Shown in pieces: positions 1 through 18,124 of a stretch of DNA of 24,776 nucleotides (the first letter of the stretch is position 1; every line of letters begins with the position of its first letter). A program made the translations under genes and the position numbers. This stretch comes from a virus, in the IMG/VR virus record IMGVR_UViG_3300024299_000919, positions 1-24,776 of that record; one strand, 5' to 3'. The notes under the pieces were generated by a model. It made no database searches. It had not been told where the DNA came from and saw only the letters and a list, made by a program, of their open reading frames with translations.

Positions 1-571
1 ATTCCGGTTTTTTGTCTAACCGGGAACCGATACCGTATAGCACTGCGGCAACGTGTTTACACATTGAAGCGTAATCGGGACAACTGCACGAAAATTCAAT
101 CTCTGATGGCTTTGGAAATAGTCCCTTATCCTGGCGGCAGAGACGTTCCATGACTCCCTTGCTAAAGCGCCCTTGCAACAGCTCTACCAGGGAGTCTATG
201 CCTCCCGCGCAATCTTTGCATATCGATTTCCATTGGGCTTTTGGTACAGAAGCAATGCCGACTGATACTTTATAAATCGATGATCCGCTGACCATTGCCT
301 GCACTTTCGTCTCTGAGATTTGCAGATCAATCACAGAGCCATTGCGCACATAGGTGCGACCGCGCGGCAACCGGTTTTCAAAGTCATGATAGTTTTCAAG
401 ATTGTCGCACCACGATTTACCCCAGAAGGTGGTTGTGATTTTACGCCCTTCGATTTCTATCGGCGCAACTATATGCCCTTTCTTGCGCAACTTTTTAACT
501 TCGCGGGCGGCTTTCTTACGTCGCTCTGCGACAGAGACATAGGGTGCCCATCCTCCGTAATTAGGTGGCAT
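1..571 (-). CDS. SWIM zinc-finger protein, partial (C-terminus beyond window)
   Basis: The minus-strand frame is open from the ATG at 571 to the left edge (190 codons, no stop). Residues 162-173 read C-S-C-(x6)-C-K-H, the CxC..CxH pattern of SWIM zinc fingers, which bind nucleic acid or protein partners. A basic N-terminal stretch (about residues 17-32) precedes it. Bacterial SNF2-type helicases are commonly encoded beside a SWIM protein (for example the ywqA/ywqB pair of Bacillus subtilis), so it probably works with the helicase just upstream. The start lies 4 nt after the helicase stop. An AAGGA site inside the last helicase codons sits 8 nt before the ATG, which implies translational coupling. 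The gene is cut by the window edge, so its full length is unknown. The zinc finger is directly visible; the partnership is inferred. Confidence 0.88.
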   Translation of the reverse strand, partial: MPPNYGGWAPYVSVAERRKKAAREVKKLRKKGHIVAPIEIEGRKITTTFWGKSWCDNLENYHDFENRLPRGRTYVRNGSVIDLQISETKVQAMVSGSSIYKVSVGIASVPKAQWKSICKDCAGGIDSLVELLQGRFSKGVMERLCRQDKGLFPKPSEIEFSCSCPDYASMCKHVAAVLYGIGSRLDKKPE

Positions 572-575
572 CGTT

Positions 576-3269
576 TCATTCCTTCATTGTGCTGCTAAGA
601 TCAAGGGTGACGAGACGTAGCAATGCATCATCCTTCATCTCGGTTAGATTAATTTCACCTGATCCTGTCAGCAAATCATCGGACAGGCTCTTCTTTGCTT
701 CAATCATGGCGTCAATTTTTTCCTCAACCGTTCCTTGGCAGACAAACTTGTGTACCAGCACGTTTTTCTTCTGCCCTATACGGAAGGCTCGGTCTGTTGC
801 TTGGTTCTCTACAGCAGGATTCCACCAACGATCAAAGTGTACGACGTGTGATGCCGCAGTCAGGTTCAAGCCTGAGCCTCCCGCTTTCAGCGACAGGATA
901 AAAAATGGAACGGTTTCATCCTCTTGGAATGTTCGCACCATGTCTTTGCGTTTCTTTACCGCCGTTCCGCCATGCAAAACCAGGCCTGAGCGGCCAAAAA
1001 TCATTCCTAAAAACGCTTCCAAAGGGGCCGTGGTTTCCTTGAACTGGGTGAATACCAGCATCTTCTCCTGGCGCGCAGCAACTACCTCGGCTATTTCGCG
1101 TAAACGAGCGAACTTTCCGCTATCGTCCTCCGACCAAATGCCATCTTTTAGCCACTGAGACGGATGATTGCATATTTGCTTCAGGCGCATCAGGGTCGCT
1201 AGGACGATGCCCTTGCGCTGTATCCCCCCGGTCCTTTCAAGCGCATCAGCCAAGTCCGATACAGTTTGCTCATAAAGAGCCCCTTGCTTGCGGCTTAAGA
1301 TGCAATGCGCTTTGATCTCGGTTTTGTCTGGCAAGTCGGTGATGACTGACTTATCGGTTTTCATTCGCCGCAGGATGTAGGGGTGCACCAGATCACGCAG
1401 TGGGCCGTAAGGATTGTGGGCCCGATCAGCTAGACCCTTGGCGTAATTTGTGAACTGCTTGGACGTTCCAAGAAGGCCTGGATTAATGAAGTCGAAGATA
1501 GACCACAGGTCGCCTAGGTGGTTCTCGACCGGAGTTCCGGTCAACGCGATCCGCGCTTTGGCTTTAATGGACTTGGCTGCCCTTGTTTGCTTGGCTTTCG
1601 GGTTTTTGATTGCCTGGGCCTCATCAAGGACAAGTAGTCGCCAATTCGTATTTGTTAGAGCCGTTGACCGCAGAAGCGTGCCATAGCTGGTAATTGCCAG
1701 ATCGAAACCAGCGAACTGATCGGAGGTTAATTGTTTCATCCGTTCTGCCGTCATGGCTGAAGGGTGAACAACCAAGGCCTTTAGACTGGGGGAAAAACGC
1801 TCAATTTCCAGCATCCAGTTGGCGAGCAACGAGGCAGGCGCGACCAACAGGCTTGGTTGCTTGTCCTTGCCTTTCTGTCCTAGAACCAACAGAAGCGACA
1901 ACACCTGGATTGTCTTTCCGAGACCCATGTCATCGGCAAGGCAGGCCCCCAGTCCAAGCCCGCTCAGAAGATGCAGCCATTGCACCCCTGCCTTTTGATA
2001 GGGACGAAGCGTTCCCTTGAGCGCCGGACCAGGGTTAATGTCTTTGCCGTCAGGGCTACGTAATGTTTTTAATGTCTTGGCAAGAAAAGGTCCTGCTGTC
2101 ACATGGGACCAGCTGGCGACGTCATTGTCTCCGCCGCCGTCGGTGATAGTGGCCCCGGCAAGCATGCGCATAGCCTGGGCAAAAGTGAGACCGTTCTCTG
2201 CCGCAAGATGTTCCGCCTCCTTGAATTGCCGCATCGCAAGTTCCATGCGTTCGCGGTCAACCTCCACCCATTGACCTCGCAGCATGACCAGTGACTCGGT
2301 CCCAGCAAGTAGTGCTGTTATCTCCTCATCGCTGAGTGGTTCCCCTTCCAGCATTACCTCCACCTGGTAATCAAGCAGCCCATCCAGCCCCACAGCGGAT
2401 GGCACACCCGTACCAACCGTTGCTGTTACTTTTGGACGTGAGGGGCGATTGGCGCGCCAGGCGGCGGGCATGCGTACGACGACGCCTGCATGTTCCAACT
2501 CGGGAACGCTGGCGAGGAACCGTGACGCTTCGGCTACTTCCCAGCGCAGGGGATGAAATATTTCACCTGCGTCAACCATTGCTTTCAGCCATGGAAAGGT
2601 TTCGGCGGCACGCTGCACCGGTATCAGTAGAGACAGCAGTTTGTCGCGGTTGGCTGTACCGGAGTATTCGCTCAACGCTTGGCCAAGCGGCACATGTTGG
2701 GCCGTGGCCTTTGCTGATAGTCCCGTGGTGTAGGTCGCGAGGAAAGCAAAGGGCAGGTCGGGATCGCGCCGGTTCTCAGCCAGATTGAAATGCACACGCC
2801 CGATCATGTTCCAAGCGGGATTCAGACTCTTCAGAAACGTTTGAATATCCATTTTAGAGGCAGCAAGAGATAAGTCGAAAGCCGCACTCAATTCTTTCCA
2901 GAGTGCCTTCAAAATATCTTGGTTCAGATACTCCGCACCCGGCATCATGGGGGCCGTCAGCACCATGGTGGCGAGTTCACTGTCGTTCGGCAGCGGTACC
3001 GTGAAAGCAGTATCCGAAGATCGAAGGCACAACCCCTCTACATAACGTACTGCGAAGTCGCGCCACCAGCCGAGGATGGGTGGTAAAGACTGCCCCACAG
3101 CTTCCGCTCCCAGCCACATTAAGCCGTGTCCTGAACCTTTGCCGAAGCTTTCGTTAAGTCGCTCTGAAACGGTGTCTTTCAGAACGGGAAAGTCCTCGGC
3201 CTCTTCGGGGACAAGATGACCATGTGGGGTCAGGCGGAGGCCAAGGCGGCAGCCGGTTGCTGATGACAT
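576..3269 (-). CDS. SNF2-family DEAD-like helicase/translocase
   Basis: This 897-aa protein should couple ATP hydrolysis to translocation on duplex DNA, remodelling DNA-protein complexes in the cytoplasm. The ATPase core starts near residue 415. Motif I DDMGLGKT is at about 446-453, motif II DEAQ at 549-552, TGTP at 577-580, and the C-terminal lobe has GGSGLNLT near 797-804 and the arginine-finger motif DRAFRIGQ at 826-833. About 400 N-terminal residues match the SNF2-associated region usual in bacterial HepA-like members and probably confer partner or substrate specificity. AGGAAAG precedes the ATG by a short spacer and overlaps the stop of the upstream peptidase gene, so the genes are co-transcribed. 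All helicase motifs are intact and no frameshift is seen. SNF2 helicases occur both in housekeeping roles and in phage defence (DISARM DrmD), so the cellular role is not settled by sequence. Confidence 0.95.
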   Translation of the reverse strand: MSSATGCRLGLRLTPHGHLVPEEAEDFPVLKDTVSERLNESFGKGSGHGLMWLGAEAVGQSLPPILGWWRDFAVRYVEGLCLRSSDTAFTVPLPNDSELATMVLTAPMMPGAEYLNQDILKALWKELSAAFDLSLAASKMDIQTFLKSLNPAWNMIGRVHFNLAENRRDPDLPFAFLATYTTGLSAKATAQHVPLGQALSEYSGTANRDKLLSLLIPVQRAAETFPWLKAMVDAGEIFHPLRWEVAEASRFLASVPELEHAGVVVRMPAAWRANRPSRPKVTATVGTGVPSAVGLDGLLDYQVEVMLEGEPLSDEEITALLAGTESLVMLRGQWVEVDRERMELAMRQFKEAEHLAAENGLTFAQAMRMLAGATITDGGGDNDVASWSHVTAGPFLAKTLKTLRSPDGKDINPGPALKGTLRPYQKAGVQWLHLLSGLGLGACLADDMGLGKTIQVLSLLLVLGQKGKDKQPSLLVAPASLLANWMLEIERFSPSLKALVVHPSAMTAERMKQLTSDQFAGFDLAITSYGTLLRSTALTNTNWRLLVLDEAQAIKNPKAKQTRAAKSIKAKARIALTGTPVENHLGDLWSIFDFINPGLLGTSKQFTNYAKGLADRAHNPYGPLRDLVHPYILRRMKTDKSVITDLPDKTEIKAHCILSRKQGALYEQTVSDLADALERTGGIQRKGIVLATLMRLKQICNHPSQWLKDGIWSEDDSGKFARLREIAEVVAARQEKMLVFTQFKETTAPLEAFLGMIFGRSGLVLHGGTAVKKRKDMVRTFQEDETVPFFILSLKAGGSGLNLTAASHVVHFDRWWNPAVENQATDRAFRIGQKKNVLVHKFVCQGTVEEKIDAMIEAKKSLSDDLLTGSGEINLTEMKDDALLRLVTLDLSSTMKE

Positions 3270-3278
3270 GCCGCTTTC

Positions 3279-4211
3279 CTATCGTTTTAATTGGGCGGAT
3301 TGTTTATCGGCCCCTGTAAATTGGTCGTAAGTATCTAGCTCTTCTGGTTCCTCAAGGTCCTTGTCCCATTTACCTGGTGCGTCATCAGGATAGAGAAGAA
3401 GCGAGATCGACATTTGGCCCTGTTTCGAGAACGTAGTCATCTCGCGAACTTCTTCATTACCAACCCATATATCTTTTGGGTGTACGACGCCGGTTCGGTT
3501 GTCGATCAGCAGATCACCCCTAGCGGCAAGGGAAGCATCAGGGAGGGCTGTTAAATTTTGGCGCGCTTTGTAAAATATACCAGACTTTAGTAATGACTTG
3601 CTGCACCAAGCCCAGTCGATAAATCCTTCCTTTCCGATAACAATCATCGCTCGCTTTGGGGTCATGTCGAGCCATTTCAGAATGGCCGCAGTCAACGATA
3701 CGTCGTATCTATCGGCAAGGTGACTCATGAGATCTAGGTCGACAGAGTTGCCATTCACTTGCTCACGAACATCATCCAACGGCATCAGCAAAAATGAGGC
3801 AAAGGTGTTGGCTTGTGCTTCAATGCGCCCATGCTCGGAATTCCAGTTGAGCATATCGCGTCCGCTGCATTGCATACCTTTGGGAGATAGTTGCCGATGC
3901 AGGAGATAGTGGCCAAGCTCATGGGCCAGAGTGAAATTGATCCGGCCTTTTGAGGAGATAGACTTGTTGTAAATGATACCCCATTCGCCGTGGCCATTAG
4001 GATGGGGAAGCAATGCGCCCTCAAACTTTTGAGACAAGTCCATTCCCTCAACCATGGTGATAGGTTCGTTCGGGAATATCTGTTTAGAATACTCGGCTGC
4101 AATGCTAGCCACGTTAATAGGGAAGCGCTGTAGCCCATGTGCCTCATGAAAGTGTTTGATTATCTTGCTGAGGTTGATTGCCCACTTTTCTGGCGTATTC
4201 GGTAGGCTCAT
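3279..4211 (-). CDS. ImmA/IrrE-family metallo-endopeptidase
   Basis: This protein of about 310 aa carries the zinc-peptidase signature HELGH (residues 97-101 from the chosen start) within FTLAHELGHYLLHR. A downstream EAQANTFASFLLMP stretch (from 131) supplies the usual glutamate ligand and the typical LLMP ending. ImmA of ICEBs1 and IrrE/PprI of Deinococcus cleave a partner HTH repressor after a DNA-damage or cell-state signal. By analogy this enzyme should cleave the XRE protein encoded immediately upstream. The ATG at 4211 overlaps the upstream stop as ATGA, which favours coupled translation. An in-frame GTG at 4226 is an alternative start five codons longer. About 150 residues after the peptidase domain (IrrE-like C-terminal part) are of unknown role. 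Family assignment is firm; the substrate is inferred from gene order. Confidence 0.92.
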   Translation of the reverse strand: MSLPNTPEKWAINLSKIIKHFHEAHGLQRFPINVASIAAEYSKQIFPNEPITMVEGMDLSQKFEGALLPHPNGHGEWGIIYNKSISSKGRINFTLAHELGHYLLHRQLSPKGMQCSGRDMLNWNSEHGRIEAQANTFASFLLMPLDDVREQVNGNSVDLDLMSHLADRYDVSLTAAILKWLDMTPKRAMIVIGKEGFIDWAWCSKSLLKSGIFYKARQNLTALPDASLAARGDLLIDNRTGVVHPKDIWVGNEEVREMTTFSKQGQMSISLLLYPDDAPGKWDKDLEEPEELDTYDQFTGADKQSAQLKR

Positions 4212-4528
4212 TCCTCCCCGCCCCACATGTCGACCATTTGCTCGATCTTTTTCTTGTCCTCATCCTCAAGCTTGCTGAATTTTCTGAAGAATGCTTCTTG
4301 GAGAACTTTCTCGTCAGGGCTCGCCGATTCATCTAGGAGGTAGTCAGTCGTCACCGATAAAGCTTGGGCGATTAGGGTAAGTTTCTCACCGGAAGGTTTC
4401 CTGGTGCCTCGGTTTTCTATTTCCCAAATATATCCTTTGCTGGATTCGCATTTCTTTGCCAGCTGCTCAAGAGTTAGCTTCTTGGCCGTCCTTAGGGCTT
4501 TAATCTTCTCACCTAAATTCATTGACAT
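4208..4528 (-). CDS. XRE-family HTH transcriptional regulator
   Basis: This small protein (106 aa from the ATG at 4528) has a classic N-terminal lambda-Cro/CI-type helix-turn-helix. The pattern LGEKIKALRTAKKLTLEQLA, then GYIWEIENR and then LTLIAQALSV, is the standard XRE fold over residues about 4-62. A charged helical tail (KLEDEDKKKIEQMVDMW) probably mediates dimerisation or recognition by the peptidase. The start was chosen because GGGAGAG sits 7 nt upstream of this ATG; a longer GTG start at 4555 and an ATG at 4522 also exist. It is the first gene of the leftward operon and is followed with ATGA overlap by the ImmA/IrrE peptidase, the ImmR-ImmA arrangement of ICEBs1. It very likely binds the paired direct repeats at 4554-4630 and represses both divergent operons. 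Confidence 0.93.
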   Translation of the reverse strand: MSMNLGEKIKALRTAKKLTLEQLAKKCESSKGYIWEIENRGTRKPSGEKLTLIAQALSVTTDYLLDESASPDEKVLQEAFFRKFSKLEDEDKKKIEQMVDMWGGEE

Positions 4529-4553: not shown

Positions 4554-4572
4554 AAGTTCTAGATAGCGTTAC
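4554..4572. repeat. Operator-like direct repeat, copy 1
   Basis: AAGTTCTAGATAGCGTTAC, 19 bp, differing from copy 2 at one base. It overlaps the -10 region of the leftward promoter. It is probably a binding site of the XRE regulator, inferred from position only. Confidence 0.7.
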
Positions 4573-4588
4573 AAAAAGATATTGACAA
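4560..4588 (-). promoter_or_regulatory. Sigma70-like promoter for the leftward XRE-ImmA-SNF2-SWIM operon
   Basis: On the minus strand TTGTCA (4583-4588) is followed after exactly 17 nt by TATCTA (4560-4565), a near-consensus promoter 32 nt upstream of the XRE start codon. The -10 box lies inside the left 19-bp repeat, so a protein bound there would block transcription. The -35 overlaps that of the opposing promoter, so the two promoters cannot easily be occupied together. Confidence 0.6.
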
Positions 4589-4610
4589 GAGTAATCTATC
4601 GAAATAATGT
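4582..4610 (+). promoter_or_regulatory. Sigma70-like promoter for the rightward DUF2188 operon
   Basis: A perfect -35 TTGACA (4582-4587) is followed after 17 nt by TAATGT (4605-4610), 66 nt upstream of the DUF2188 start. The expected transcription start falls in the right 19-bp repeat, so repressor binding would occlude initiation. The -35 is almost superimposed on the reverse-strand -35 of the leftward promoter. Confidence 0.65.
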
Positions 4611-4611
4611 G

Positions 4612-4630
4612 AAGTTCTAAATAGCGTTAC
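4612..4630. repeat. Operator-like direct repeat, copy 2
   Basis: AAGTTCTAAATAGCGTTAC, 19 bp, 58 bp downstream of copy 1 and in the same orientation. It sits immediately after the -10 of the rightward promoter, at the predicted start of transcription. A degenerate inverted half-site (GTAATCTATC, 4591-4600) lies between the two copies. Confidence 0.7.
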
Positions 4631-4675: not shown

Positions 4676-4912
4676 ATGGGTAAGGGTCCTGAAACGCACC
4701 ATGTGGTGCCTAATAAAGATAAAGGTGGCTGGGACGTACGACGCGGCGGTGCTGACCGTGCGAGCGGCCATTTTGATACCAGGCAACAGGCCGTGGATGC
4801 CGGGCGTGACATTAGTCGCAATCAACAAACTGAATTTTGTATCCACAATAAGGACGGGAAAATTTCGCAGACAGATAGTCACGGAAATGACCCACGTCGA
4901 ATCAAAGGTTAG
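4676..4912 (+). CDS. DUF2188-type small protein
   Basis: This 78-aa protein has the features of the DUF2188 family: an N-terminal HHVVPNKDKGGWDVRRGGA block, a DTRQQAVDAGRDISRNQ helix, and an HNKDGKISQTDSHGNDPRR ending. Members are short proteins with a compact alpha/beta fold found alone or in mobile elements; no biochemical function is established. A good ribosome site (AGGAG) lies about 9 nt upstream of the ATG. It is the first gene of the rightward operon, controlled from the shared divergent promoter region. Its small size and first position would suit a signalling, antitoxin-like or modifier role, but nothing in the sequence proves this. The family call is made from memory of the pattern and should be confirmed by profile search. 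Confidence 0.8.
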   Translation: MGKGPETHHVVPNKDKGGWDVRRGGADRASGHFDTRQQAVDAGRDISRNQQTEFCIHNKDGKISQTDSHGNDPRRIKG

Positions 4913-4924
4913 AAGGGAATACAA

Positions 4925-6121
4925 ATGACCGCCAATATTGCGAAATTTTTCCGTCACACACCGGCTATTTCTCTGGAAAAGTATTTCCTGGAATTCCCAT
5001 CACCGGTTTCTGAAGCCGTTGATTGGTCTGACCTTCCATCAAACGTGAGCATGCCTTTGATTATGGCTGTTGACGATTTGACTGAAGATGATTTGGCAAT
5101 GCTTAACACAAACTCTGAGCGCATCAATGAAATGACGGATGAAATTGGTCAGGATGCTCTCATGGCTGTTGTTTCGGCGGAAGACTTATCCGAATATGAA
5201 AACCTGCAAAGCGGTCATGACCGCGCTCTCTATGTATATCTGAGGAATCCTGAAGCTTTCAAAAGAGCTGAAGATATCCGGTTTTCCGATGCGTATAGAA
5301 AATCTCGGATGTGGGCAGGTTTCCTGGGCCCCAAGGAATCGGATGTTAGCAAGGACCCTTTAGACCGTGAATTATTCAAGGACAAGGTCTCCGCGTTGAG
5401 CCAGGCCAGCGGAAAAGTTAAGATCGAAGTATTCACACGCACTAAACCCTACGCGGACGGACAGGAACTAAAACTTGTTCAAGTTATGATTTACCGTGAG
5501 GGGCTGCCTGAAAGCTTCAATGTCTTTGATCAAGATGATCTTGTTTCTCAAATTGTGCGCCCTGTTCGTGAAGTCGTTCTGTCCTATGAACCACAGTCAG
5601 GACAAATTGAGATCATCGCCGATGATAGTGCTATTCGAGAGGAAGTCGTAAAAGCCTTTGCTGAAACGCTTCTGGGGACGGAGATCGATGGTGAAAGGGT
5701 TCCGCTTAAGCAGTACGATTTGAGCAAGCTGTTAAATCAATATGACTTTCCGACAGACCCTGATGATGGCATTGAAAATGTCAAAATCAGCATGCTGAAG
5801 CTGCGTCCCTACGATTCTACAAACAAGGTCACTCTGGAAGTGGGTGCAAAAGAACAAAAAACGATCCATCAGATGTCGCGCGAATGGTTCGCAATGCATG
5901 ACCCACTTGGTGGTGGTTTTTTAGTTGCGCAAGTAAAGCTCACGATTAAGTTTGCGGCTGACAGCGAAAGCCCAAGAGGCAAAACTATCCCTGTGAAAAT
6001 CAGCTATCCCAACAACTGTGACCTGAAAAGCCGGACCGAAAAAGAACGGTTGATTGGCGATAAATACCTCAAGAAGTGGGGTCTGCTGAAAGAGATCGAA
6101 TATGGCCAGCCTACCGACTGA
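4925..6121 (+). CDS. Protein of unknown function (398 aa)
   Basis: I do not recognise this protein. It is acidic and soluble with no signal peptide or membrane segment. The N-terminal third (to about residue 140) appears mostly helical, with many Asp/Glu (DDLTEDDLAML, AEDLSEYENL). From about residue 165 it alternates beta-type stretches such as KVKIEVFTRTKPY, KLVQVMIYREGL and VREVVLSYEP, with QIEIIADD and NVKISMLKLRPY further on. It ends in a Lys-rich segment (KERLIGDKYLKKWGLLKE). No nucleotide-binding or nuclease motif stands out. GAAGGG lies 7 nt before the ATG, 12 nt after the DUF2188 stop, so the genes form an operon. Its 3' end overlaps the next gene by 20 nt, implying that the two products act together. 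It appears more AT-rich by eye than the phage genes to the right. Confidence 0.85.
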   Translation: MTANIAKFFRHTPAISLEKYFLEFPSPVSEAVDWSDLPSNVSMPLIMAVDDLTEDDLAMLNTNSERINEMTDEIGQDALMAVVSAEDLSEYENLQSGHDRALYVYLRNPEAFKRAEDIRFSDAYRKSRMWAGFLGPKESDVSKDPLDRELFKDKVSALSQASGKVKIEVFTRTKPYADGQELKLVQVMIYREGLPESFNVFDQDDLVSQIVRPVREVVLSYEPQSGQIEIIADDSAIREEVVKAFAETLLGTEIDGERVPLKQYDLSKLLNQYDFPTDPDDGIENVKISMLKLRPYDSTNKVTLEVGAKEQKTIHQMSREWFAMHDPLGGGFLVAQVKLTIKFAADSESPRGKTIPVKISYPNNCDLKSRTEKERLIGDKYLKKWGLLKEIEYGQPTD

Positions 6122-7016
6122 TGTATATGTCGCTACCTGCCAGTTGATTGAGACGCCTTCTGCAATGGTGACCATTCAAAACTTGAATGGCTTATTTAAC
6201 TCGGAGGTTTGTGCTGCACTTACGAAAACCGGCTTACTGGTCGATGCTCCATATCTTCAAGATATTGAAGTCGAGTATGAAGGTGAACTACGCAGCTACC
6301 CCGTGGAACGGCACGATGGAAACTGGCGCTATTTCCTGCAGGGGAGCGGTTGGGTTCAGGTGCCCCCTGAGTCTTTGAAGGTTTCCCGAGTCGATATTTC
6401 GGCATATCTCAAGGCTATGATGTCGGCGCTTGGTTTTGAGGAGCGAGCAGTTCCTGAGGAAATTAGAGAAAACGGGGTCTGGTATTTGGGCCAGGCCTGG
6501 TTGCAGAGCCGAAAGACACACATTGTTTATGTGAGAAGGTTGGGAGATGAAAGAACGATATCGGCTTTGACTGGTTTCTTGGAAGACCGGCACAAGAGTG
6601 ACCCCGCCTTAATATTGACGACGGGCAAGAATTTACCTGCCTATCTTCAGTTGCCGGGACAAAACCGTATTGTCACTTTGGCTGACGCCATCAATTTTCA
6701 ATCTGAAAAGCTTACATTCAAGACGGATTACTTGGCCAGAAAAATGGGTGGAAGTGTGAATAATACTGGCTTCAGTGATGGGTTTAGGACGGCCTATATA
6801 AACGGTAAAAATTATGAATTCTCGAATTTGCAGGCTCAAATAATCGAGGTGCTGAGCAATGCAGGAAGAGCCATGCACAAGTCTGAGATTATGTCTCAAG
6901 TGGAATCTTCACAAGAAGAAGTAATCGGTGTCTTTCGCTCCGGGGGAAAAAAGCATTCAGCATGGGGCGTCGTGATCAAGAACGATAGAAAAGGAAACTA
7001 CTGGCTCGAACTCTAG
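6102..7016 (+). CDS. Protein of unknown function with probable C-terminal winged helix (304 aa)
   Basis: I do not recognise this protein as a whole. The last 65 residues look like a winged-helix domain: NLQAQIIEVLSNAGRAMHKS gives two helices, EEVIGVFRSGGKKHSAWG a third helix and turn, and VVIKNDRKGNYWLEL a beta wing. That layout resembles DNA-binding domains that sense or deliver to DNA. The middle part (about 120-190) contains WYLGQAWLQSRKTHIVYVRRL and DPALILTTGKNLPAYLQLPG, a mixed alpha/beta pattern without obvious catalytic residues. The ATG lies inside the end of the 398-aa gene (20-nt overlap), so translation is coupled. It is the last gene of the rightward operon and is followed by a strong terminator. 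It could be the DNA-recognition subunit of a two-protein complex; this is inference. Confidence 0.85.
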   Translation: MASLPTDVYVATCQLIETPSAMVTIQNLNGLFNSEVCAALTKTGLLVDAPYLQDIEVEYEGELRSYPVERHDGNWRYFLQGSGWVQVPPESLKVSRVDISAYLKAMMSALGFEERAVPEEIRENGVWYLGQAWLQSRKTHIVYVRRLGDERTISALTGFLEDRHKSDPALILTTGKNLPAYLQLPGQNRIVTLADAINFQSEKLTFKTDYLARKMGGSVNNTGFSDGFRTAYINGKNYEFSNLQAQIIEVLSNAGRAMHKSEIMSQVESSQEEVIGVFRSGGKKHSAWGVVIKNDRKGNYWLEL

Positions 7017-7032
7017 ACCACCAAAAAAAACA

Positions 7033-7080
7033 AGACATACGATGATGCCTCGGCTTTTGCCGGGGCATTTTTTTTGTCTT
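7033..7080 (+). terminator. Intrinsic terminator ending the rightward accessory operon
   Basis: ATGCCTCGGC (7045-7054), loop TTTT, GCCGGGGCAT (7059-7068) forms a 10-bp stem with one G-T pair, running into eight T. Outer AAGACA/TGTCTT (7033-7038 and 7075-7080) can extend it, and an A-run at 7023-7030 would let it act on the opposite strand too. It separates the accessory operon from the phage early operon. Confidence 0.92.
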
Positions 7081-7087
7081 GAGGGCA

Positions 7088-7160
7088 TTTCACACAGATT
7101 TTCACACACCTGACACACAGAATCTCACCCCCCTAATTTGCGATATTTCCCGTGTGATTT
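7088..7160. promoter_or_regulatory. Phased CACACA sites upstream of the phage early operon
   Basis: CACACA begins at 7091, 7103 and 7114 (spacing 12 and 11 bp, about one helical turn), the first two preceded by TTT. An inverted copy, GTGTGATTT, lies at 7152-7160. No clear -35/-10 pair was found between these and the ATG at 7189. Helical phasing suggests binding sites for an HTH protein, perhaps the one encoded next. Confidence 0.45.
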
Positions 7161-16870: not shown

Positions 16871-18124
16871 TTGAACGCTCAAATCATCAACATCGGTGAC
16901 AAGGTCGAGATGATCGCCACTGGCGAACTCTCCTGCCACCCGGATAATCCGCGCCGGGGAAACGTCGATGAAATCAGGTCCAGCATTCGGAGCAATGGAT
17001 TTTACGGAGCGCTGGTCGTTCACAGATCAACGGGTCACATCCTTGCGGGCAACCACCGTTTCATGGCGGCCCAAGCGGAAGGGTTGGACAAGGTCCCGGT
17101 CATCTACGTGGATGCCAGCGATGATGATGCCAAAGCCATTCTGGTCGGAGACAACCGCCTTTCGGATTTAGCGGAAAATGATCCGGAACTTCTCGTCGCC
17201 TTGTTGCAAGCCATTCAATCTCGCGAACAAGGCCTGACCGGAACCGGTTATTCTGATGACGACCTTGCTGCACTATTGGCAGCCGGTATGGATGATGGAG
17301 AGGCGCTGGAGGGGGAAGACGATGTTCCCGATACGCCGGAAGATCCAATTTCCCGCCCCGGTGATTTGTGGGTTCTTGGTAACCACCGTTTAATTTGCGG
17401 TGATGCGACAATTGCCACCGACGTGGAGCGATTACTGGAAACGGTCAAACCGCTCCTCATGGTCACAGACCCGCCTTACGGTGTCGAATATGACCCGTCA
17501 TGGCGCAACAAGGCTGGTGCTGCGGGAACCAAGAGAACTGGTAAAGTTTTAAACGATGATCGTGCCGATTGGCGTGAAGCCTGGGCTTTGTTCCCGGGTG
17601 ACGTTGCGTATGTCTGGCACGGTGCATTGCATGCGGCGACTGTCGCTGAGAGCCTTGAGGAATCGGGCTTTAAAGTCCGCTCGCAGATCATCTGGGCCAA
17701 GGAAAGATTGGTTTTGAGTCGTGGTGATTACCACTGGCAACATGAACCCTGCTGGTATGCGGTCAAAAAAACAGGCAAGGGTCACTGGGCTGGTGATCGT
17801 AAGCAGACAACGCTCTGGCAGATATCCAGCCGGGATCAGGACGCAAAAACTGTTCATGGAACCCAAAAACCTGTCGAATGTATGCGCCGCCCCATTTTAA
17901 ACAATTCAAGTCCCGGTCAAGCTGTCTACGAACCCTTCATGGGATCTGGCACCACGTTGATCGCCGCTGAAAGTACGGGTCGCGTTTGCTATGGCTCTGA
18001 ACTGAGCCCGGCCTATGTGGACGTGGCAGTTTTACGTTGGCAAAAAATTACAGGAGGAAAAGCAATGCTGAATGGCGATGGCCGTTCGTTTGATGAGATC
18101 AAGGAAGGGAAGGCCGCAGCATGA
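16871..18124 (+). CDS. ParB-like domain fused to DNA methyltransferase
   Basis: This 417-aa fusion has a ParB/Srx-type N-terminal domain (HPDNPRRG, then ILAGNHRFMAA at 57-67). A methyltransferase follows with catalytic DPPY (200-203) and the AdoMet-binding FMGSGTT (356-362). With DPPY before FxGxG this is the beta order seen in N6-adenine and N4-cytosine DNA methylases. Such fusions are common in phages and probably modify phage DNA against host restriction or affect packaging or timing. No restriction endonuclease lies nearby, so it is an orphan enzyme. The start is a TTG at 16871 with GAAGAG 6 nt upstream; the next ATG (residue 14) would trim the ParB-like domain. It ends in ATGA overlap with the membrane protein gene. 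Confidence 0.9.
   Translation: MNAQIINIGDKVEMIATGELSCHPDNPRRGNVDEIRSSIRSNGFYGALVVHRSTGHILAGNHRFMAAQAEGLDKVPVIYVDASDDDAKAILVGDNRLSDLAENDPELLVALLQAIQSREQGLTGTGYSDDDLAALLAAGMDDGEALEGEDDVPDTPEDPISRPGDLWVLGNHRLICGDATIATDVERLLETVKPLLMVTDPPYGVEYDPSWRNKAGAAGTKRTGKVLNDDRADWREAWALFPGDVAYVWHGALHAATVAESLEESGFKVRSQIIWAKERLVLSRGDYHWQHEPCWYAVKKTGKGHWAGDRKQTTLWQISSRDQDAKTVHGTQKPVECMRRPILNNSSPGQAVYEPFMGSGTTLIAAESTGRVCYGSELSPAYVDVAVLRWQKITGGKAMLNGDGRSFDEIKEGKAAA

Follow-up and report, generated by a model that had tools for sequence, protein, structure and literature searches.

At positions 4554–4630 of the window—the whole stretch analysed, a 24.8-kb virus record—two divergent candidate promoters stand back to back with overlapping -35 boxes. 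These are TTGACA on the plus strand (4582–4587) and TTGTCA on the minus strand (4583–4588 in plus-strand coordinates), which have five of six positions in common. Spacers of 17 nt separate them from candidate -10 boxes, TAATGT to the right (4605–4610, plus strand) and TATCTA to the left (4560–4565, minus strand), each matching TATAAT at three of six positions. Both promoters are weak by the sigma-70 consensus and neither was listed by a consensus scan. TTGACA followed at 17 nt by a -10 box with at least three of six matches occurs a single time within the window. Given the poor -10 boxes and their absence from the scanner list, we treat the promoters as candidates, and their weakness by consensus leaves the weight of the argument to conservation in relatives.

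Two 19-bp direct repeats, AAGTTCTAGATAGCGTTAC (4554–4572) and AAGTTCTAAATAGCGTTAC (4612–4630), are identical at 18 of 19 positions and lie 58 bp apart, as opposed to 50 bp in related loci. The first contains the left -10 box, that of the leftward capH promoter, and is our operator 2; the second begins 2 nt past the right -10 box, spans the expected rightward start point and is our operator 1. Both are predicted to be bound by CapH. The original prediction had described just this arrangement: the two promoters with near-superimposed -35 boxes could be read directly from the letters (overlap at 4582–4588), and the repeats lie over the left -10 and the right start point as claimed, with one mismatch between them. 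Allowing up to three mismatches, the 19-mer occurs at these two sites in the window and at none in 100 dinucleotide shuffles. A third copy at this threshold was found neither in the window nor in a 35-kb sister contig, which carries the same two sites and no others. Read on the capH strand, the window sites (GTAACGCTATYTAGAAC) show less palindromic symmetry than their counterparts in related loci.

Leftward of the promoters lies a gene for a 106-aa XRE-type repressor (capH; 4208–4528, minus strand), with GGGAGAG a few nucleotides 5' of its ATG. It sits directly upstream of a gene for an M78 metalloprotease (capP; 3279–4226, minus strand; Pfam Peptidase_M78), which overlaps its end. PADLOC assigned the two as capH (2.3e-31) and capP (4.1e-71). 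The repressor matched PDB 7t5u (E = 3.4e-15) and the protease 7t5t (E = 1.2e-66), the latter match covering residues 11–283. The HELGH of the window protease—the HEXXH zinc-protease motif—is intact and aligned to the HELGH of 7t5t. With this protease as query, CapP was the only solved structure matched at E up to 0.01. A Peptidase_S24 autoprotease domain is absent from the 106-aa XRE protein, and none was found in the sister contig. Judged by homology, the XRE/ImmA-like pair is CapH/CapP; the ImmR/ImmA precedent from ICEBs1 that had been invoked for it thus gives way to CapH and CapP as the closest characterised relatives (PADLOC, 7t5t, 7t5u). Among the characterised homologues, CapP is a single-stranded DNA (ssDNA)-activated protease that cuts CapH and so derepresses the adjoining operon (PMC10904395, PMC10233336, PMC13373217).

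The first gene of the rightward unit encodes a DUF2188 protein (4676–4912, plus strand; Pfam DUF2188, 8e-24; PADLOC PDC-S16, 2e-32) and is missing from many relatives. It is followed by O398 (4925–6121, plus strand), a conserved uncharacterised protein (phrog_37634), and by its fast-diverging partner O304 (6102–7016, plus strand), which has a possible C-terminal winged helix. An intrinsic terminator with an 11-bp stem and a T run (7044–7069, plus strand) comes next, and a terminator occurs at most 160 nt past O304 in 41 of 100 related loci, as against 3 of 500 random stretches. Its position after O304 defines the rightward unit as DUF2188-O398-O304. On the minus strand, an SNF2 helicase gene (DUF3670 + SNF2 + Helicase_C; 576–3269) starts 9 nt past the capP stop, is preceded by AGGAAA and is possible co-transcribed cargo. 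A SWIM zinc-finger gene truncated by the window edge (2–571, minus strand; Pfam SWIM, 1.7e-5) is possibly the last gene of this unit, which may read capH-capP-SNF2-SWIM. Seven genes had been proposed to form one inducible set; the three rightward ones are bounded by the terminator and the four leftward ones are plausible, but SNF2-SWIM does not lie beside CapP in relatives. In several of the relatives scanned, capP is followed by genes for DUF2924 and a serine recombinase, in others by unrelated genes, which makes SNF2-SWIM cargo particular to the window phage and its sister.

The SNF2 protein was also considered as a Zorya or Dpd component and rejected, as the PADLOC matches span the helicase domains only. 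Other viral contigs (L146–L149) likewise carry an SNF2 (DUF3670) helicase gene, followed by a further small gene, close to serine recombinases, though in a differing orientation to the phage; together with window positions 2–3269, this suggests cargo or an integration hotspot.

How far the operator arrangement extends can be seen upstream of xre in relatives, where the layout is kept and the letters of the 19-mer are not. Among 42 intergenic regions that are homologous yet dissimilar, 40 have the palindrome GTTC-N6..11-GAAC, where shuffles gave 0.7 on average and 4 at most; 24 have two. Of 43 dissimilar homologous regions, 20 have an individually significant repeat pair and 33 a TTGACA-like hexamer; the palindromes usually flank a common TTGACA. 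In relatives with two clear palindromes, the capH-side site starts 17 nt after the start of TTGTCA (16 in the window; distances in relatives compared by eye) and includes the -10 position as it does in the window, while the second palindrome lies on the same side of the common -35 as window repeat 2. Related alpha- and gammaproteobacterial prophages show this layout by the dozen. The expectation that the repeats would accompany homologous XRE-ImmA pairs is therefore borne out for the layout, with palindromes in 40 of the 42 regions, but not for the 19-mer itself, whose letters differ.

The best sequence evidence linking the sites to CapH is covariation with residue 41 of the repressor, the residue after ENR/ENK in the recognition segment. 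Asp, Glu or Asn at this position goes with GTTCG half-sites (277 of 320) and Gly with GTTCA or GTTCT (30 of 40); the window combines Gly41 with a GTTCT half-site. The nominal Fisher p for the association between residue 41 and operator base 5 is 1e-15, an inflated value, as the sequences share ancestry and the half-site count took in the whole region; one locus (L096) is a counterexample to the rule. A search of viral contigs for the operator core, a 17-base pattern, matched two contigs, the sister and an unrelated one (L004) in which no xre was found. We take the latter as chance, given a 17-base pattern, a very large collection and no xre found. That CapH operators sit on the divergent promoter pair is, by inference from these patterns, well supported.

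The partner genes of the rightward unit were followed in viral contigs and bacterial genomes. Among CapH/CapP relatives in viral contigs, O398 lies across from capH except at L022, L031 and L047, the last of which begins at xre, and it is mostly accompanied by an O304-like gene. Scanning bacterial genomes for O398 gave 80 loci, mostly in Alphaproteobacteria, with some in gammaproteobacteria and Magnetococcales. At many of those without CapH/CapP homologues, the same place is taken by a different XRE gene with an M78 gene behind it, both on the O398 strand (a cluster of 16 homologous ORFs, with L111 tested by Pfam), or by an XRE-M78 fusion (L098, tested; L102, homologous). CapP is commoner than the CapHP-O398 module: it matched in 72 of 337 alphaproteobacterial genomes, the long, strong matches among these numbered about 19, and three of the 19 adjoin O398 as judged from coordinates. 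Among INPHARED phages, all CapP matches fell below 40% identity and no O398 relative was found.

Two prophages encode O398 and O304 as a single fusion protein of 742–767 aa (L157, 505–2733; L158, 1057–3360), the O304 half being recognised by eye and by a weak tblastn match, which suggests that the two proteins probably act together. In these prophages (L161, L162), no XRE or M78 gene was seen adjoining the fusion. In a Micavibrio genome (L066, 1–17185), the unfused pair is divergent from DISARM-like DrmA/DrmB/Vsr genes and precedes the HsdR gene of a type I restriction enzyme, again with no adjacent XRE or M78 gene. The fusions and this pair together imply that O398-O304 is not tied to a CapHP switch.

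Neither protein matches a PADLOC model. A structural model of O398 (mean pLDDT 82) resembles CENP-N, CENP-L and RdgC at Z values of 6–8.6, most rmsd values lying between 4 and 7; such Z values fall where likeness can arise without kinship. A viral structure library gave an uncharacterised siphovirus protein as the single match under E = 0.001, with an RdgC-like phage protein next. The modelled likeness to the eukaryotic kinetochore proteins CENP-N and CENP-L and to bacterial RdgC is suggestive only and could be chance. For O304, the best Z was 5.7, with matches scattered among unrelated folds and a weak C-terminal winged helix, and we do not trust the fold. A DNA-binding role for the two would be a guess. 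We flag O398-O304 as a conserved, uncharacterised pair.

We consider it very likely that the feature at 4554–4630 is the operator region of a CapH-CapP repressor/operator/protease core residing in a prophage. Homology, layout and covariation appear to be read best in the way originally predicted, with two operators flanking the divergent promoters and a repressor of XRE type working on them together with a metalloprotease. By analogy with the characterised homologues, CapH would bind both 19-bp sites and shut the leftward promoter, which would serve capH-capP and probably SNF2-SWIM, together with the rightward one, which would serve DUF2188-O398-O304. DNA damage would produce ssDNA and activate CapP, as ssDNA does in those homologues, CapH would be cut and both units would fire together.

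Phage replication, terminase and portal genes run rightward from ~7.2 kb. Across 15 CapHP-bearing phage contigs (29–50 kb, some possibly fragments), no Peptidase_S24 repressor of the CI/LexA type was found, and in 13 of the 15 CapH is the sole HTH_3 protein. In a related phage contig that lacks CapHP and O398 (L147), the corresponding place, with the serine recombinase on one side and the early HTH_17 gene on the other, is taken by an S24 repressor. The absence of S24 proteins, the status of CapH as sole HTH_3 protein and the S24 repressor of L147 together favour a lysogeny switch: CapHP sits where a related phage keeps its CI-type repressor, and so, going by gene order, we think it likely, with less assurance than for the operator core itself, that it decides between lysogeny and induction, O398-O304 being turned on first. 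Against this reading, derepressing the rightward promoter alone need not activate the early genes, because the terminator separates O304 from the replication genes. In the 35-kb sister contig no recombinase was found.

Between the terminator and the HTH_17 gene, the window has TCACAC-like units (7083–7140; CACACAGATTTTCACACACCT and CACACAGAATCTCACCCCCCT, 23 nt apart), and relatives have other short units in the same gap (TCCTACC, TTCTCCC, CCTAACC). They look like iterons with phage-specific sequence; a tandem-repeat search upstream of the HTH_17 gene gave no scored array. Early genes of the window phage recur at ~100% identity in a 4.8-Mb alphaproteobacterial genome (L163, 1–7823; contig C126 of G202), where the contig stops inside O398, so that it does not include the operators. 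Farther along the window (16871–18124), a ParB-like N-terminal domain is joined to a DNA methyltransferase in one protein (phrog_498).

The principal alternative, plausible in our estimation if the less probable of the two, is that CapHP controls a self-contained accessory operon, probably anti-phage (DUF2188-O398-O304 plus SNF2-SWIM), and that lysogeny is decided elsewhere. Characterised CapH-CapP pairs do govern adjoining immune operons (PMC13373217), the terminator ends the rightward operon before the phage genes begin, DUF2188 is the PADLOC candidate PDC-S16, and in the Micavibrio genome O398-O304 stands between DISARM-like DrmA/DrmB/Vsr and a type I restriction enzyme. Against this, O398 and O304 are without a PADLOC match, the 15 contigs hold no other CI-type repressor, and the module, where it occurs in prophages, is found at the boundary of integrase and early genes, not at variable cargo sites. 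On balance, we favour a lysogeny switch over a self-contained defence operon.

The window pair resembles characterised CapH-CapP systems in that its CapP is homologous over nearly its full length to 7t5t and its CapH to the CapH domain in 7t5u, in the gene order capH-capP and in having an adjacent operon to control. It differs from the pairs of CBASS and other immune operons in lying in a prophage, at the integrase/early-gene boundary, without CBASS or another known immune operon (DUF2188 being a candidate, PDC-S16, only), in the control of a divergent operon via two predicted operators around a common -35, and in its uncharacterised partner genes O398-O304. It is improbable that the locus is a strict ImmR-ImmA module as in ICEBs1. 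In ICEBs1 and TnSmu1 too, an M78 metalloprotease removes an XRE repressor and a mobile element is switched on, the divergent operons of the ICEBs1 module fit the same logic, and ImmRA and CapHP have been described as parallel systems (PMC10233336); yet the window proteins are far closer in sequence to CapH/CapP, CapP being the sole hit of the protease among solved structures at E up to 0.01, and the element has phage terminase and replication genes where those are conjugative elements. Least probable of all, the repeats might be another regulator's sites or a chance duplication, as the exact 19-mer has no other occurrences than those of the sister contig and a single one in an unrelated contig, but dozens of divergent homologous regions have two sites in this layout, and the site sequence tracks the CapH recognition segment.

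Other metalloprotease-repressor pairs offer parallels. MpaR, which acts on CI-like repressors in Listeria phage elements (PMC6872733), is likewise a metalloprotease serving as phage anti-repressor—by description—but works across two phage elements. In the DdrO-IrrE/PprI system of Deinococcus, an ssDNA-sensing M78 protease similarly cuts an XRE repressor, whereas there the target is a chromosomal radiation-response regulon; CapP and PprI have a common structure and little common sequence (PMC10904395). From a phage repressor of the CI/LexA type, the window XRE protein differs by its missing S24 autoprotease domain.

More tentatively still, alpha- and gammaproteobacterial prophages of one large family may use CapHP-type or other XRE and M78 proteins as lysogeny switch in place of a RecA-dependent CI, with a DNA-binding O398-O304 complex of CENP-N/L/RdgC-like fold as the first induction product; we hold this doubtful in its full form. 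The operator consensus GTTC-N6..11-GAAC, with base 5 tracking repressor residue 41, is ready for testing. If this wider lysogeny reading is true, the control of immunity in hosts and the induction of prophages rely on a common ssDNA-sensing device: with CapHP as the only candidate for a CI-like regulator in a widespread prophage family, one ssDNA sensor would serve both phage exit and anti-phage defence of the host.
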